A stretch of DNA of 40,372 nt, taken from the NCBI GenBank assembly GCA_025054575.1, contig JANWZN010000010.1, positions 1 through 40,372 of the forward strand, in the 5' to 3' direction. This DNA comes from Geminicoccaceae bacterium (lineage in GTDB: Bacteria > Pseudomonadota > Alphaproteobacteria > Geminicoccales > Geminicoccaceae). This document shows, in pieces, positions 1,541 through 29,921 of the stretch (position 1 is its first letter; every line of letters begins with the position of its first letter). Below the pieces are notes generated by a model. That model saw only the letters and a program-made list of their open reading frames with translations, was not told the origin of the DNA and did not search any database. The translations under genes and the position numbers were made by a program.

Positions 1541-1561
<21 letters not shown>
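2..1561 (+). CDS. Receiver-GGDEF-EAL c-di-GMP protein, 5' truncated by window
   Basis: The reading frame is open from base 2, so the true start lies upstream; the TTG at 62 is unlikely to be real. The first ~55 residues look like the end of a response-regulator receiver domain. A GGDEF domain follows with an intact GGDEF active site at codons 153-157 and an RETD inhibitory I-site (RxxD) at codons 144-147, so diguanylate cyclase activity with product inhibition is plausible. The C-terminal half is EAL-like in length and order but has lost key positions: the EAL triad reads AAI, the Asn of the NLS motif is gone, the metal-binding DDFG reads DRFG, and KID reads KIA. Phosphodiesterase activity is therefore doubtful; the domain may only bind c-di-GMP or GTP. 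It converges on the next diguanylate cyclase gene with a 21-base tail overlap. Confidence 0.9.
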
Positions 1562-2593
<1,032 letters not shown>

Positions 2594-2611: not shown

Positions 2612-2629
2612 TTAACGAACCGTTGACGA
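2612..2629. promoter_or_regulatory. CtrA-like site (TTAA-N7-TTGA)
   Basis: TTAACGAACCGTTGACGA matches the alphaproteobacterial CtrA consensus TTAA-N7-TTAA with one mismatch. It lies between the divergent starts of the diguanylate cyclase (2593) and the hydrolase (2717). The TTGACG inside it (2623-2628) could also act as a -35 box for the hydrolase, with TCTGCT at 2646-2651 as a weak -10. It matches 15 of 18 positions with the motif upstream of fliX at 4126. Confidence 0.4.
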
Positions 2630-2716
2630 CGACCATCCGATCTTCTCTGCTTTGGCCGGATGCATCTGTGCATCGCGGGACAGCGCCGAACCCGGAGCTT
2701 CCTCGGAGGGGTCGCC

Positions 2717-3577
2717 ATGATCCATCTTCTGCTCGGCGGTGTCGTCGCCTACGGCGTCGCCGTCACCGGAATGTACCTCTTGCAAGACACGCTGCTGTTC
2801 CCCCGGGCAGCGGTACGCTTCCCGGCTTCGGCGCTGCCCCCGCGGGCCGAGCGGGTGGTCCTCCAGTCGGTCGACGGCGATCCCTTGGTCGGCACCTTGC
2901 TGCCCGCCCTCGGCACCAGCCGCGGGCTGCTCGTCGGTTTCGGCGGTAACGCTTGGAACGCCGACGATCTCGCCCTCTTCCTCGGGGAGCGGGCACCGGA
3001 CTTCGACCTCGTCGTGTTCCATTATCGCGGCTACCAGCCGAGCGGCGGTCGACCGAGCGAGCATGCGCTCTACGCCGATGCCGTGACCGTCCACGACTGG
3101 GCGGTCGGGCGGCTGGCGCCGCCGCGGGTCTATGCGGTGGGCTTCAGCCTCGGCTCGGCGGTCGCCGCCTACCTGGCTTCGCAACGCCAGCTCGACGGCC
3201 TCGTCCTCGTCACACCGTTCGACTCGATCGAGGCGATCGCCCTCGAGCGCTACCCGTGGGTTCCGGTACGGGCGCTGCTGCGACACCCCTTCCGGGCCGA
3301 CGCTCACCTGCGCGGCCGCGATCTGCCGGTAGCGGTCATCGCCGCGAGCGAGGATCGCATCGTGCCCAAGGAGCGGACCGAGGCCTTGGCCGCGATGCTG
3401 GCGCGTCCCGTTCTCGTGGCGAGCGTGCCCGACGCCACCCACAACGGCATTTACGATCACGAGCTGTTCGATCGCCTCTTCCGGCAGGCGTTCGCTCGTT
3501 TGGACGATGCCGACCGCGCCGCTCGCGAGCGCGGCGAACCCTCGCGCACCAGGGCCGCGGAGGCGGTGGGCGGCTGA
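2717..3577 (+). CDS. Membrane-anchored alpha/beta hydrolase (BEM46/ABHD13-like)
   Basis: A 286-residue serine hydrolase. The start is the ATG at 2717 because a strong GGAGGGG ribosome-binding site lies at 2704-2710; the longer frame upstream lacks one. Residues 3-22 form one hydrophobic segment, which should anchor the protein in the inner membrane. The nucleophile elbow is GFSLGS with Ser144; Asp213 (in SEDRIV) and His242 (in DATHNGIYD) complete the expected triad. The layout matches the BEM46/YfhR/ABHD13 group, whose substrates are mostly unknown. It stands alone, divergent from the diguanylate cyclase and convergent with fliX. Confidence 0.85.
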   Translation: MIHLLLGGVVAYGVAVTGMYLLQDTLLFPRAAVRFPASALPPRAERVVLQSVDGDPLVGTLLPALGTSRGLLVGFGGNAWNADDLALFLGERAPDFDLVVFHYRGYQPSGGRPSEHALYADAVTVHDWAVGRLAPPRVYAVGFSLGSAVAAYLASQRQLDGLVLVTPFDSIEAIALERYPWVPVRALLRHPFRADAHLRGRDLPVAVIAASEDRIVPKERTEALAAMLARPVLVASVPDATHNGIYDHELFDRLFRQAFARLDDADRAARERGEPSRTRAAEAVGG

Positions 3578-3594
3578 CCGATCGCCGTCTCGCT

Positions 3595-3619
3595 GGCGGC
3601 TCGGGGAAACGAGGCCGCC
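3595..3619. terminator. Hairpin between convergent hydrolase and fliX
   Basis: GGCGGC-TCG pairs with CGAGGCCGCC across a short GGGAAA loop, with one bulged base. It fills most of the 44-base gap between two convergent stop codons and could terminate both transcripts. There is no run of T, so it may work only as a barrier or with Rho. Confidence 0.35.
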
Positions 3620-3621
3620 CT

Positions 3622-4080
3622 TCATCGACCGCCGCCGGCGCTCGCCGCCGCAGCGGCCGTCGCGACCTCGAGCTTCGCCAGCTCGACCTCGACGCGCGTC
3701 GCGAGCTCGGCGAGGACACGGGCGAGCGCCGGCTCGCAGCTCGCTCGGTCCATTTCGCCGAGGCCGCGCGCCAGCGCTCGCACGGTGCCCGGCTGCACCG
3801 CGCCCGCGAGAAGCCCCAGCTGGAGCTCCTCCAAAAGGTCGAGCAAGGTCGTCGCGTGCCGGATCGTTCGGCGCCGTCGATCGCTCGCCTCGTCCACCTG
3901 CTGCAAGGCGATCAAGGCGTCGATCCCGGCCAAGGGGCCGACCGGGGCCGCCCCGCCGGCGCGGGGCCCGGTAACAGGACCACTCGTGCCGAGGTCGGCG
4001 AGGGGCCAGGAGCCGTCCTGCCGGCCCGTGCGCCGTATCCGACCTCCGGCACCGGTTGCGACCGTCCACTCCACGCGCAT
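3622..4080 (-). CDS. fliX: Flagellar assembly trans-activator FliX
   Basis: A 152-residue protein. The start is the ATG at 4080, with a GGAGG ribosome-binding site at 4089-4093; the longer open frame upstream is non-coding leader. The N-terminal ~60 residues are low-complexity. The C-terminal ~90 residues have the FliX pattern: a GIDALIALQ motif, an acidic-Arg stretch (DEASDRRRR), a LLDLLEELQLGLL helix and a terminal VELAKLEV. In Caulobacter FliX works with the sigma-54 activator FlbD, coupling early basal-body assembly to late flagellar gene expression. The gene is divergent from flgI, whose promoter here is sigma-54 type, which fits that role. No flbD lies in the window. A CtrA-like motif lies 46 bases upstream. 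Confidence 0.85.
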   Translation of the reverse strand: MRVEWTVATGAGGRIRRTGRQDGSWPLADLGTSGPVTGPRAGGAAPVGPLAGIDALIALQQVDEASDRRRRTIRHATTLLDLLEELQLGLLAGAVQPGTVRALARGLGEMDRASCEPALARVLAELATRVEVELAKLEVATAAAAASAGGGR

Positions 4081-4125
4081 GGGCTGATCCTCCGCACCCT
4101 GCGCCGAAAGTCTGACCGAAATTGG

Positions 4126-4143
4126 TTTAAGAACGGTTGACGA
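4126..4143. promoter_or_regulatory. CtrA-like motif upstream of fliX
   Basis: TTTAAGAACGGTTGACGA shares 15 of 18 positions with the motif at 2612-2629. As a CtrA box it reads TTTA-N7-TTGA, two mismatches from consensus. A GAATC (GANTC, the CcrM methylation target) follows at 4144-4148. In Caulobacter fliX is a CtrA-dependent class II gene, which makes a site here plausible. Confidence 0.35.
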
Positions 4144-4248
4144 GAATCGAGGGCTACCCGGCAGTTCGTGCCGGGGAGGGCAAGAATTTCCGGCCGAAGG
4201 TTGCAGAGCCCCAGACGGATCGCCCGGGGGGAGCGGATTCGGCGGCTC

Positions 4249-4263
4249 TGGCACGATGATGGC
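4249..4263 (+). promoter_or_regulatory. Sigma-54 promoter of the flgI operon
   Basis: CTGGCACGATGATGGCT (4248-4264) matches the sigma-54 consensus TGGCACG-N4-TTGC. The -24 GG is at 4250-4251 and the -12 GC at 4262-4263, with exactly 10 bases between them. The only departure in the core is TGGC for TTGC. Predicted transcription starts about 4275, giving a leader of about 45 bases before the GTG of flgI. Confidence 0.75.
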
Positions 4264-4319: not shown

Positions 4320-5480
4320 GTGCGGTTGGCCATCGACGCGAGGGTGCCAAGGAGAGCGAGCGGAGCGACGCGCGTGCGGGTGCGCGCGCTGCTGCTCCTT
4401 CTGACGCTGCTCGGCGCGTTGCCGGTTGCCGCGCGGGCCACCTCGCGGATCAAGGACGTCGCCGATTTCGAGGGTGTGCGGGAGAACGTGCTGATCGGCT
4501 ACGGTCTCGTCGTCGGGCTCAACGGTAGCGGCGACTCCCTGCGCAACTCGGTGTTCACGCAGGAAAGTCTGGTCGCGATGCTCGAGCGGCTCGGGGTCGG
4601 CACGCGCGGCGTGAACCTCAACACCCGCAACGTCGCGGCGGTCATGGTCACCGCGACCTTGCCGCCGTTCGCCCGCCAGGGAACGCGCATCGACGTCGCG
4701 GTCAACGCCATGGGCGACGCCAAATCGCTGCTCGGCGGCACTTTGCTCGCGACACCGCTCCTCGGCGCCGACGGCGAGGTGTATGCGGTGGCCCAGGGGG
4801 CGCTCGCCGTGGGCGGGTTCGAGGCCCGAGGTGCCGCCCAGTCGGTCACCCGGAACGTCCCGACCAGCGCCCGATTGCCCGCCGGGGCGATCGTCGAGCG
4901 CGAGGTACCCTTCGCCCTCGATTCGCTGCCGGAGATCCGACTCGCACTGCGCAATCCCGATTTCACGACGGCGCAGCGCATCGCCACGGTGATCAACAGC
5001 CGCATCCCGGGCGAGCCCGCGCGTGCCACCGACCCGGCCACCGTCCGGCTGCCGGTGCCGGCCGCCTGGCGCGGCCGCGTCGCCCAGCTCTTGAGCGAGA
5101 TCGAACAGCTGCCGGTACAGCCCGACAGCCCCGCGCGGATCGTCATCGACGAAGCCTCGGGCATCATCGTCATGGGCGACAAGGTGCGGATCAGCCGGGT
5201 CGCCGTCGCCCAGGGCAACCTCACCGTGCGCGTGACCGAGACTCCCCAGGTGAGCCAGCCCAATCCGCTGGCCAGCGGCGAGACGGTGGTCGTGCCCCGC
5301 ACCAACGTCGAGGTCGACGACCAGCGCGAGCGCCGCATGGTCGTCCTCGAGCCCGGCGCCACCCTCGACGCGCTCGTCGACGGTCTGAACGCGCTCGGCG
5401 TCGGGCCGCGCGACATGATCGCGATCATCCAGGCGATCAAGGCCGCCGGAGCGCTGCAGGCCGAGATCGAGGTGATGTGA
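4320..5480 (+). CDS. flgI: Flagellar P-ring protein FlgI
   Basis: A 386-residue periplasmic protein that forms the P ring around the flagellar rod. A basic N-terminus and a Leu-rich stretch (residues ~23-35) give a Sec signal peptide, probably cleaved after ARA near residue 40. The mature part opens with the family motif RIKDVADFEGVRENVLIGYGL, followed by the GLNGSGDSL segment, and ends in the conserved AGALQAEIEVM. The GTG at 4320 has GGGAG six bases upstream; a GTG nearer the Leu-rich stretch (~4377) would give a more normal signal peptide and is possible. It is the first gene of a five-gene operon behind a sigma-54 promoter. The chaperone flgA and L-ring flgH are not in the window. Confidence 0.95.
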   Translation: MRLAIDARVPRRASGATRVRVRALLLLLTLLGALPVAARATSRIKDVADFEGVRENVLIGYGLVVGLNGSGDSLRNSVFTQESLVAMLERLGVGTRGVNLNTRNVAAVMVTATLPPFARQGTRIDVAVNAMGDAKSLLGGTLLATPLLGADGEVYAVAQGALAVGGFEARGAAQSVTRNVPTSARLPAGAIVEREVPFALDSLPEIRLALRNPDFTTAQRIATVINSRIPGEPARATDPATVRLPVPAAWRGRVAQLLSEIEQLPVQPDSPARIVIDEASGIIVMGDKVRISRVAVAQGNLTVRVTETPQVSQPNPLASGETVVVPRTNVEVDDQRERRMVVLEPGATLDALVDGLNALGVGPRDMIAIIQAIKAAGALQAEIEVM

Positions 5481-9001: not shown

Positions 9002-9016
9002 TTAAGGCGGCGTCAA
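9002..9016. promoter_or_regulatory. CtrA-like site (TTAA-N7-TCAA) upstream of fliW
   Basis: TTAAGGCGGCGTCAA has the spacing of the CtrA box TTAA-N7-TTAA with one mismatch, and ends TCAAC like the TTAAC half-site. It lies 48 bases before the fliW ATG, in the 72-base gap after flgL. A GCTAGG at 9025-9030 could be a -10 element. Confidence 0.35.
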
Positions 9017-9063: not shown

Positions 9064-9552
9064 ATGGAACTCTCCTCTCCCTCGCCGGCCGGTCCCGCGC
9101 TCCCGCTGCCGGCCCTGCCGGAAACAGCGGCCGAAGCGGCCCGCTGCGCCCCGCTGCACGGGCCCCTCGGCTTTCCGGCCGGGCTTCCCGGTTTTTCCGA
9201 GTTCCGGTCCTTCCGGCTCGAGCCCTTGGGCCCCGCCGCTGGCGATTTCCTGCTGCTCGCTTGCGAGGAGGAGCAGGGCCCGCGCTTCATCGTGCTGCCC
9301 GTGCGCGAGCCGGCCGCTCTCTTCGGCGACGCGCTCGTCGCCGAAGCGGCCGCGCTCGCCGGGGTCGAGCCGGACGAGCTCTGCTTCTTGCTGCTCGTCA
9401 CGCTCGTGCCGGGCCCGGGCGACCGCGAGGCGTTCGTCAATCTGCGCGCCCCGCTCTTGGTCGATCTCCGCCACCGGCTCGCCCGCCAGCTCGTGCTGGC
9501 CGATGCGCGCCTGCCTTTGCGTCATCGCCTGGAGCGCCGTGCCGCGGCCTGA
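9064..9552 (+). CDS. fliW: Flagellar assembly factor FliW
   Basis: A 162-residue protein. FliW binds flagellin and, in Bacillus and Campylobacter, antagonises the translational repressor CsrA, so that flagellin synthesis tracks its export. The family pattern is clear: GLPGFSEFRSFRLEPLG near residue 40, a LLVTLVPGPG strand, VNLRAPLLVDLRHRLARQLVLAD and a terminal LRHRL. About 35 Ala/Pro-rich residues precede the domain, an extension beyond the usual ~130-150 residues. GGAGA at 9053-9057 is the ribosome-binding site. It is separated from flgL by 72 bases with its own possible promoter. No csrA is seen in the window. Confidence 0.85.
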   Translation: MELSSPSPAGPALPLPALPETAAEAARCAPLHGPLGFPAGLPGFSEFRSFRLEPLGPAAGDFLLLACEEEQGPRFIVLPVREPAALFGDALVAEAAALAGVEPDELCFLLLVTLVPGPGDREAFVNLRAPLLVDLRHRLARQLVLADARLPLRHRLERRAAA

Positions 9553-29506: not shown

Positions 29507-29921
29507 CGGGTACCCGCACCTTCCAACCCCGAGTCGTAGATACGGTGCTGCGCTCTCCGCGCGGCGGCCGCTCGGTGTGCTGCCCGTCCCGCTCGGTCAG
29601 CACGTTGCCGGGCCGACACGGCCTCAACTTTTCAGTGAACTCGCACGTTCTCGTTTCGGTCGCCTTGCTCGCAGCCGGAACCATGATTAACCTCCACGGT
29701 CTCGTAAGAAGCCTGATCGTGGCGGAAGTTGACTTGCAAATATTTGACTTGCCGAAGACGACGCCAGCAATCGTGGGAAGTGCATCCTGATGCGCCGACC
29801 GCGAAGGCGCTCTACCATAGCTTGAGAGCTGGCGGGCGGGATCCCACGGGGCAGGGTCCCGCCGGGACGGTTCGGCCGGGCTCGGCCGAGCGAGGAGGTC
29901 GGGTGTCGGGAGGGGGCGAGG
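29507..29921. other. rpsT-dnaA intergenic region with A/T-rich core
   Basis: About 415 bases with no convincing gene. Bases ~29620-29760 are close to half A+T, unlike the rest of the window. They hold a TTAACC at 29689-29694 (a CtrA-type half-site), two direct copies of TTGACTTGC at 29729-29737 and 29744-29752, and a ten-base palindrome CAAATATTTG (29737-29746) lying across them. No match to the DnaA box TTATCCACA was found on either strand. The region most likely carries the dnaA promoter and its regulators. Good -35/-10 pairs could not be fixed with confidence. Confidence 0.5.

Follow-up and report, generated by a model that had tools for sequence, protein, structure and literature searches.

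The window is the whole stretch of DNA analyzed here, 40,372 nucleotides of a Geminicoccaceae contig. Pfam assigns to its genes a GGDEF-EAL protein (62-1558), a GGDEF diguanylate cyclase and FliX on the minus strand, an alpha/beta hydrolase, FlgI, a weakly matching rod-binding protein, FlgK, a flagellin-like FlgL and FliW, with one gene left without an assignment. Judged by FlgI (81%), the closest named relative is Geminicoccaceae bacterium KatS3mg117. Between the divergent genes for the cyclase and hydrolase, and again between fliX and flgI, lies an 18-base motif, TTAACGAACCGTTGACGA at 2612-2629 and TTTAAGAACGGTTGACGA at 4126-4143. The two copies are identical at 15 of 18 bases, as the initial annotation had stated. 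A search of the window with TTAACGAACCGTTGACGA allowing up to three mismatches returned positions 2612 and 4126 only, and none of 100 dinucleotide shuffles of the window gave a second copy (mean 0.00). Coordinates of the predicted boxes, promoter elements and genes are collected below.

Table 1. Predicted CtrA boxes, promoter elements and neighboring genes in the window.
Feature	Position	Strand	Remarks
CtrA box A (predicted)	2612..2626	-	TCAACGGTTCGTTAA, TCAA-N7-TTAA, 7/8 consensus positions; faces cyclase
-11 A of cyclase promoter (predicted)	2599	-	13 bases past box A; transcription start ~2588
GGDEF diguanylate cyclase	1541..2557	-	Pfam GGDEF 1.9e-45; probable start GTG 2557
alpha/beta hydrolase	2660..3577	+	Pfam Abhydrolase_1 1.6e-12; divergent from cyclase; start 2660 or 2717
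fliX, flagellar assembly regulator	3622..4080	-	Pfam FliX 2.2e-29; ATG 4080; leader ~22 nt
-11 A of fliX promoter (predicted)	4113	-	transcription start ~4102
CtrA box B (predicted)	4126..4140	-	TCAACCGTTCTTAAA, TCAA-N7-TAAA, 6/8 consensus positions; faces fliX
ftr-like palindrome	4159..4173		CGGCAGTTCGTGCCG; between box B and flgI
sigma-54-type -24/-12 element	4249..4263	+	TGGCACGATGATGGC; for flgI
flgI	4320..5480	+	Pfam FlgI 8.1e-141; divergent from fliX
CtrA box W (predicted)	9002..9016	+	TTAAGGCGGCGTCAA, TTAA-N7-TCAA, 7/8 consensus positions; faces fliW
-11 A of fliW promoter (predicted)	9029	+	within GCTAGGCT; transcription start ~9040
fliW	9064..9552	+	Pfam FliW 3.3e-15; leader ~24 nt

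The initial annotation had described TTAA as very rare in this DNA and confined to intergenic regions. The window holds four TTAA tetramers, at 2612, 4127, 9002 and 29687 (the last had been placed at 29689), and an ad hoc gene call puts all four outside genes. This is a small number in absolute terms but not relative to base composition, which predicts 5.76 (sd 2.27), and we therefore dropped rarity as evidence. In an 86,922-base sample of the same genome, 9 of 11 TTAA were scored as intergenic and two as coding; the latter two sit just upstream of ctrA, beneath what is probably a false antisense gene call. Because TTAA in general falls between genes, an intergenic position alone is weak evidence.

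Of the two copies proposed to approximate TTAA-N7-TTAA, the one at 2612 is a true TTAA-N7-TTGA. The second has TTTA and TTGA as its in-register halves; comparison with relatives places the TTAA at 4127 one base out of register. Both boxes are read on the minus strand, so that the shared TTGACGA is the reverse of TCAA, the upstream half-site, together with its flanking CG. The pattern TCAA-N7-TTAA with one mismatch is not exceptional in the window (2 matches against 1.42 expected, with 38 of 100 shuffles reaching 2). The weight of the argument rests on genome-wide spacing, conservation and a fixed downstream A.

Of the two further TTAA, the one at 9002 belongs to a third box, box W, which had gone unrecognized, and the one at 29687 was rejected as a CtrA box because it falls below 6/8 consensus positions. 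A model trained without the window sites gave boxes A, B and W, in that order, the top three ranks (scores 27.1, 22.1 and 18.9) among 80,676 window positions, although the rank of box A is partly circular because training sites were picked with a pattern taken from it. Next came A and W read in reverse (17.1 and 12.8), followed by a position scoring 8.6. Among 20 Markov copies of the window, the best chance score was 19.5, above that of box W in this one copy, and the next copy reached 15.0.

Box conservation and predicted promoter geometry

Boxes with a model score of at least 8 were found upstream of 15 of 17 fliX loci in Geminicoccaceae (control 0.87%; 9 of 26 flgI loci were left out as having no FliX match), 13 of 24 fliW loci (control 0.32%) and 17 of 29 cyclase homologues (control 1.28%). 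For the cyclase set, each genome was represented by its best GGDEF match, which is not necessarily the orthologue. This family scoring set aside L212 and L233, which were too short, and L238, the second match in genome G008. Box A recurs as the same box, in the same orientation and place, at all three syntenic loci of the genus (TCAA-N7-TTAACC). Box B is itself weak, matching 6/8 consensus positions. Between fliX and flgI, a best box of at least 7/8 is present at 16 of 26 family loci (control windows 0.35%) and at 43 of the 78 named alphaproteobacterial loci that were scored (control 4.5%; 2 of 80 were dropped). The box beside fliX is degenerate in the congener G021 (L031).

When boxes in the upstream regions of the relatives' fliX, fliW and cyclase genes were picked by box score alone (best box at least 7/8 and unique per locus; 15 fliX, 10 fliW and 8 cyclase loci), all 33 had an A at +13 past the box. 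At other offsets from 3 to 25 on the same side, A occurred in at most 10 of the 33 loci; on the opposite side, the mirror position matched in 7. Being related by descent, these loci do not amount to 33 independent events, yet they involve different genes and a family of 16 genera. The A at +13 is present in all three window boxes, and 29 of 34 TCAA-N7-TTAA sites in the window's own genome (G000) and the congener G022 have it at +13 or +14. On the far side of these 34 sites a T stands at -13 in 15, as if some boxes also fired a promoter in the opposite direction.

The transcription starts mapped by 5'-RACE in Rhodobacter sphaeroides follow the CtrA box by 23-24 nt; the -11 A is invariant there, and leaders measure 12-33 nt (passages of PMC6180460). 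An A at +13 or +14 corresponds to the same geometry, and the leaders predicted for boxes A, B and W, of 31, 22 and 24 nt, fall within that range. This geometry also bears on the start of the cyclase, which is probably GTG 2557 rather than ATG 2593, since the ATG lies upstream of the predicted transcript. The GTG is preceded by GAAAGG, and the starts of relatives align there. The ad hoc gene caller gives no independent support for this start, as it was trained on window genes that included the cyclase from 2557.

The initial annotation had placed the motif upstream of the cyclase/hydrolase pair; box direction and conservation favor the cyclase, and the hydrolase is not well supported as a target. 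CtrA control of the hydrolase through box A is possible, since its plus side has an A at +14, but of three syntenic congeners only L070 keeps such a base there, at 13 or 14. Toward flgI, box B has no A at +13 or +14, and flgI is apparently not driven by it.

The gene flgI has sigma-54- and ftr-like elements of its own. Going from fliX, the segment in relatives contains a TTAA-N7-TTAA-like box, CGGCA-N5-TGCCG palindromes, a TGGCACG-N4-TKGC element and then flgI. With up to one mismatch, 24 of the 26 relatives in the family have the ftr-like palindrome, whose consensus was drawn by eye from those sequences (control 8.7%), and 23 of 26 have the sigma-54-type element upstream of flgI (control 2.1%).

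Among other readings of the sites, the one that survives best, although we consider it unlikely, is that CtrA binds and mainly represses, or that a single box controls the genes on either side. In Caulobacter, half-sites over the -10 element can mediate repression by CtrA (PMC4287350, in part), one R. sphaeroides CtrA site can serve two divergent promoters (PMC6180460, in part), and the far-side T described above is what a reverse promoter would give. However, the box position, 23-24 nt from the start, fits activation, and the T excess is absent from the fliX, fliW and cyclase sets (7/33).

It is very improbable that TTGACGA is instead an ordinary plus-strand -35 element driving the hydrolase and flgI. 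TTGACG does resemble a sigma-70 -35 hexamer, each motif has a plus-strand gene of a divergent pair on one side, and box A read toward the hydrolase has its A at +14. We rejected this reading because the conserved A is on the other side, toward cyclase, fliX and fliW; the base on the hydrolase side is kept in only one of the three syntenic congeners (L070). Furthermore, a -35 element would leave the in-register TTAA half at a fixed N7 unexplained, and flgI has the sigma-54-like element that most relatives share.

CtrA and the genome-wide spacing of the motif

The genome encodes a CtrA orthologue, which scores 380.4 bits against the NCBIfam CtrA equivalog NF045991 (cut-off 350) and is 64% identical to the query over residues 1-226. 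It shares with Caulobacter CtrA, in what we take to be that protein's sequence, the stretch DEPELKIIDVFICKLRKK and aspartate 51. Upstream of ctrA lies CTAACGAAGTCTTAA, a CTAA-N7-TTAA box at 7/8 (L205 3573-3587) with an A at +14; the ctrA start, at 3643, is 55 bases on, and a second TTAA is found at L205 3599. This arrangement suggests that ctrA may be autoregulated. No match to the Pfam ChpT model, PF10090, was found in this genome, a result that both absence and divergence would fit; 9 of 31 family genomes have a match, 5 of them above the cut-off.

The CtrA query matched 15 proteins in the genome, receiver-only ones included, and several are further OmpR-like regulators, any of which might use the box in place of CtrA. 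We give this idea very little credence: identity drops to 34% at the second-best match, and CtrA is the regulator whose box, spacing and promoter position are seen here.

Across the 3.55-Mb draft genome, a search for TTAA-N7-TTRA gave 23 strand-hits at 20 places, compared with 8 strand-hits when the pattern was reversed. The pattern is found mainly between genes: 17 of the 20 places are outside predicted genes, one lies over a gene end (L008), one is inside a gene (L009) and one was reassigned (L004). The apparent inside-gene location of L004 was discarded because its 785-aa ORF is a false antisense call, and the whole contig places it between genes. The initial annotation had named two findings that would refute its proposal, a pattern no commoner upstream of genes than inside them and a genome lacking ctrA. 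Neither was observed, and the CtrA-type reading is supported.

Spacing was assessed with TTAA-N(0-24)-TTGAC in the window's own genome and three congeners (G021 and G023 were left out of this search). The gap is exactly 7 in 12 of 16 matches in the window's genome, 9 of 13 in G020, 10 of 19 in G022 and 8 of 14 in G024, a total of 39 of 62. With all gaps pooled there is no enrichment in these genomes, the reversed control being higher in the window's genome (21 vs 16), G022 (31 vs 19), G020 (31 vs 13) and G024 (28 vs 14; 90 vs 46 for these three congeners). It is therefore the spacing that is special and not the sum. TTAA-N7-TTGAC exceeds its reversed form by 12 to 2 in the window's genome, 9 to 1 in G020, 10 to 1 in G022 and 8 to 1 in G024. 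The excess is absent in two of five congeners (G021, 0 vs 2; G023, 4 vs 4) and in several other genera (for example G019, 17 vs 38, and G026, 7 vs 7). Given G021 and G023, the regulon or the half-site may have drifted within the genus. In G013, many of the 19 TTAA-N7-TTGAC matches share TTAACAG-N6-TTGAC, often exactly as TTAACAGCGTGTTGAC, suggesting a repeat family or a different motif.

The genes beside the boxes were identified from scans of 40 of the 60 predicted flanking proteins. Apart from those in the window, boxes in this genome adjoin fliL-fliM (with flgF divergent), a flhB-like/fliO/fliP cluster, tadE/tad genes, a PAS-GGDEF-EAL gene and a ParA-like gene, and one lies between HerA and a second PAS-GGDEF-EAL gene. 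Thus, both c-di-GMP and flagellar genes, the targets originally suggested, are among the neighbors; about half of the 20 places flank metabolic genes with no obvious link to CtrA, and some of the remaining neighbors are unassigned. Seven places are common to this genome and G022: those of the cyclase, fliX, flhB-like/fliOP, HerA/PAS-GGDEF-EAL, PAS-GGDEF-EAL, rhomboid/enoyl-CoA hydratase, and the AsmA side of a ribosomal-protein-L32-like gene. The pair L012/L180 was not counted as shared, its match spanning 31 residues only. An identical box, TCAACCGGATCTTAA, stands by the AsmA-like gene, near the L32-like gene, in both genomes (L208 2689-2703; L191).

The spacing also bears on whether an Fnr/Crp-type regulator binds these sites, as the arms TCAAC and GTTAA resemble the half-sites of the Fnr-type site of Dinoroseobacter, TTAAC-N4-GTCAA (PMC7232146, in part). 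We regard this as most improbable and rejected it on spacing, since Fnr arms are 4 apart and the arms here are 5 apart, as are those of CtrA in the same excerpts. TTAA-N6-TTGAC occurs once in the genome, as box B out of register, and the targets are flagellar, pilus and c-di-GMP genes. Finally, chance likeness in GC-rich intergenic DNA has a negligible probability: the loose TCAA-N7-TTAA is not rare in the window and TTAA generally lies between genes, but the shuffles, the N7 spacing, the conservation at three loci and the A in 33 of 33 boxes largely refute it.

A proposed CtrA regulon

We propose that both 18-base motifs are CtrA boxes within CtrA-activated, sigma-70-type promoters, with box A serving the cyclase and box B serving fliX, and that box W similarly serves fliW; we put the probability of this reading at about 0.86. 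In such a scheme, phosphorylated CtrA would bind the box, which lies about 24 to 38 bases ahead of the start, and recruit polymerase to a -10 element with its fixed A at -11. CtrA would thereby cause the c-di-GMP synthase, FliX and FliW to be made together, and flgI would follow later from its own sigma-54/ftr-type promoter by way of a FliX-FlbD step. Motif, spacing, orientation, conservation and the presence of CtrA are read directly from the sequence; CtrA binding, activation as opposed to repression, the FliX-FlbD-flgI step and any cell-cycle timing are what we infer.

FliW is an antagonist of CsrA and gates flagellin translation. A tentative and somewhat doubtful extension of our proposal is that CtrA in Geminicoccaceae acts as a single switch for the c-di-GMP synthase, other GGDEF/EAL proteins, FliX (the partner of FlbD) and FliW, using a rigid grammar of box, 12 or 13 bases and -11 A. 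A direct wire from CtrA to FliW would then join the transcriptional and translational flagellar checkpoints, possibly without a recognizable ChpT.

The open-licence literature, with subscription papers outside the scope of our search, contained no paper with both Geminicoccaceae and CtrA and none with CtrA, FliW and CsrA together. For a family in which CtrA has hardly been examined, the candidate sites offer a first outline of its regulon that can be put to the test; if our proposal is right, CtrA links c-di-GMP synthesis there to the flagellar checkpoints. With an A fixed 13 bases beyond the box, a loosely defined motif becomes a promoter rule that has a direction and by which gene starts can be corrected, as with the cyclase.

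Comparison with known CtrA systems

The window boxes share with the CtrA-activated promoters of Caulobacter crescentus, those of its class II flagellar genes, the motif (TTAA-N7-TTAA), its N7 and, as predicted, a position near -35, where full CtrA motifs are found (PMC4287350, in part). In that species too, the upstream half is commonly imperfect, as in CTAA-N7-TTAA at fliQ and AAAA-N7-TTAA at fliL (excerpts of PMC11264516). Several C. crescentus targets recur here as genes beside predicted boxes, including fliX, fliL-fliM, fliO-fliP and pilus genes. Unlike in Caulobacter, TCAA is the commonest upstream half in this Geminicoccaceae genus, fliW is a predicted target and ChpT was not detected. 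To our knowledge, Caulobacter has no fliW.

The fliX-flgI region resembles the late flagellar circuit of Caulobacter, in which CtrA activates early flagellar genes including those for FlbD and FliX, and FliX governs FlbD, the sigma-54 activator (PMC3930126, in part). Like the FlbD/ftr/sigma-54 late promoters, flgI has paired palindromes and a -24/-12 element, and it adjoins fliX with its predicted CtrA box. Across the genome to which the window belongs, the exact ftr-like pattern is not enriched (4 matches, with 13 for its reversed form).

The predicted geometry resembles that of the CtrA-controlled fla2 promoters of Rhodobacter (Cereibacter) sphaeroides, which have the same 23-24 nt from box to start, the -11 A, leaders of 12-33 nt and divergent flagellar promoters (passages of PMC6180460). 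Those starts were mapped by 5'-RACE and the boxes mutated, whereas the window promoters are known from sequence alone. Unlike in R. sphaeroides, each window box appears to serve one gene, as far as its bases tell. In Dinoroseobacter shibae and Rhodobacter capsulatus, the CtrA relay affects c-di-GMP signaling genes, as we propose here, the cyclases being likened by function only (PMC7232146, in part). A survey of other alphaproteobacteria with the Caulobacter CtrA matrix found cell motility and signal transduction enriched (excerpts of PMC2877005). What we describe would therefore be a known type of system; what appears to be new is the family, the dominance of the TCAA half, the inclusion of fliW among the targets and how constant the -11 A is.
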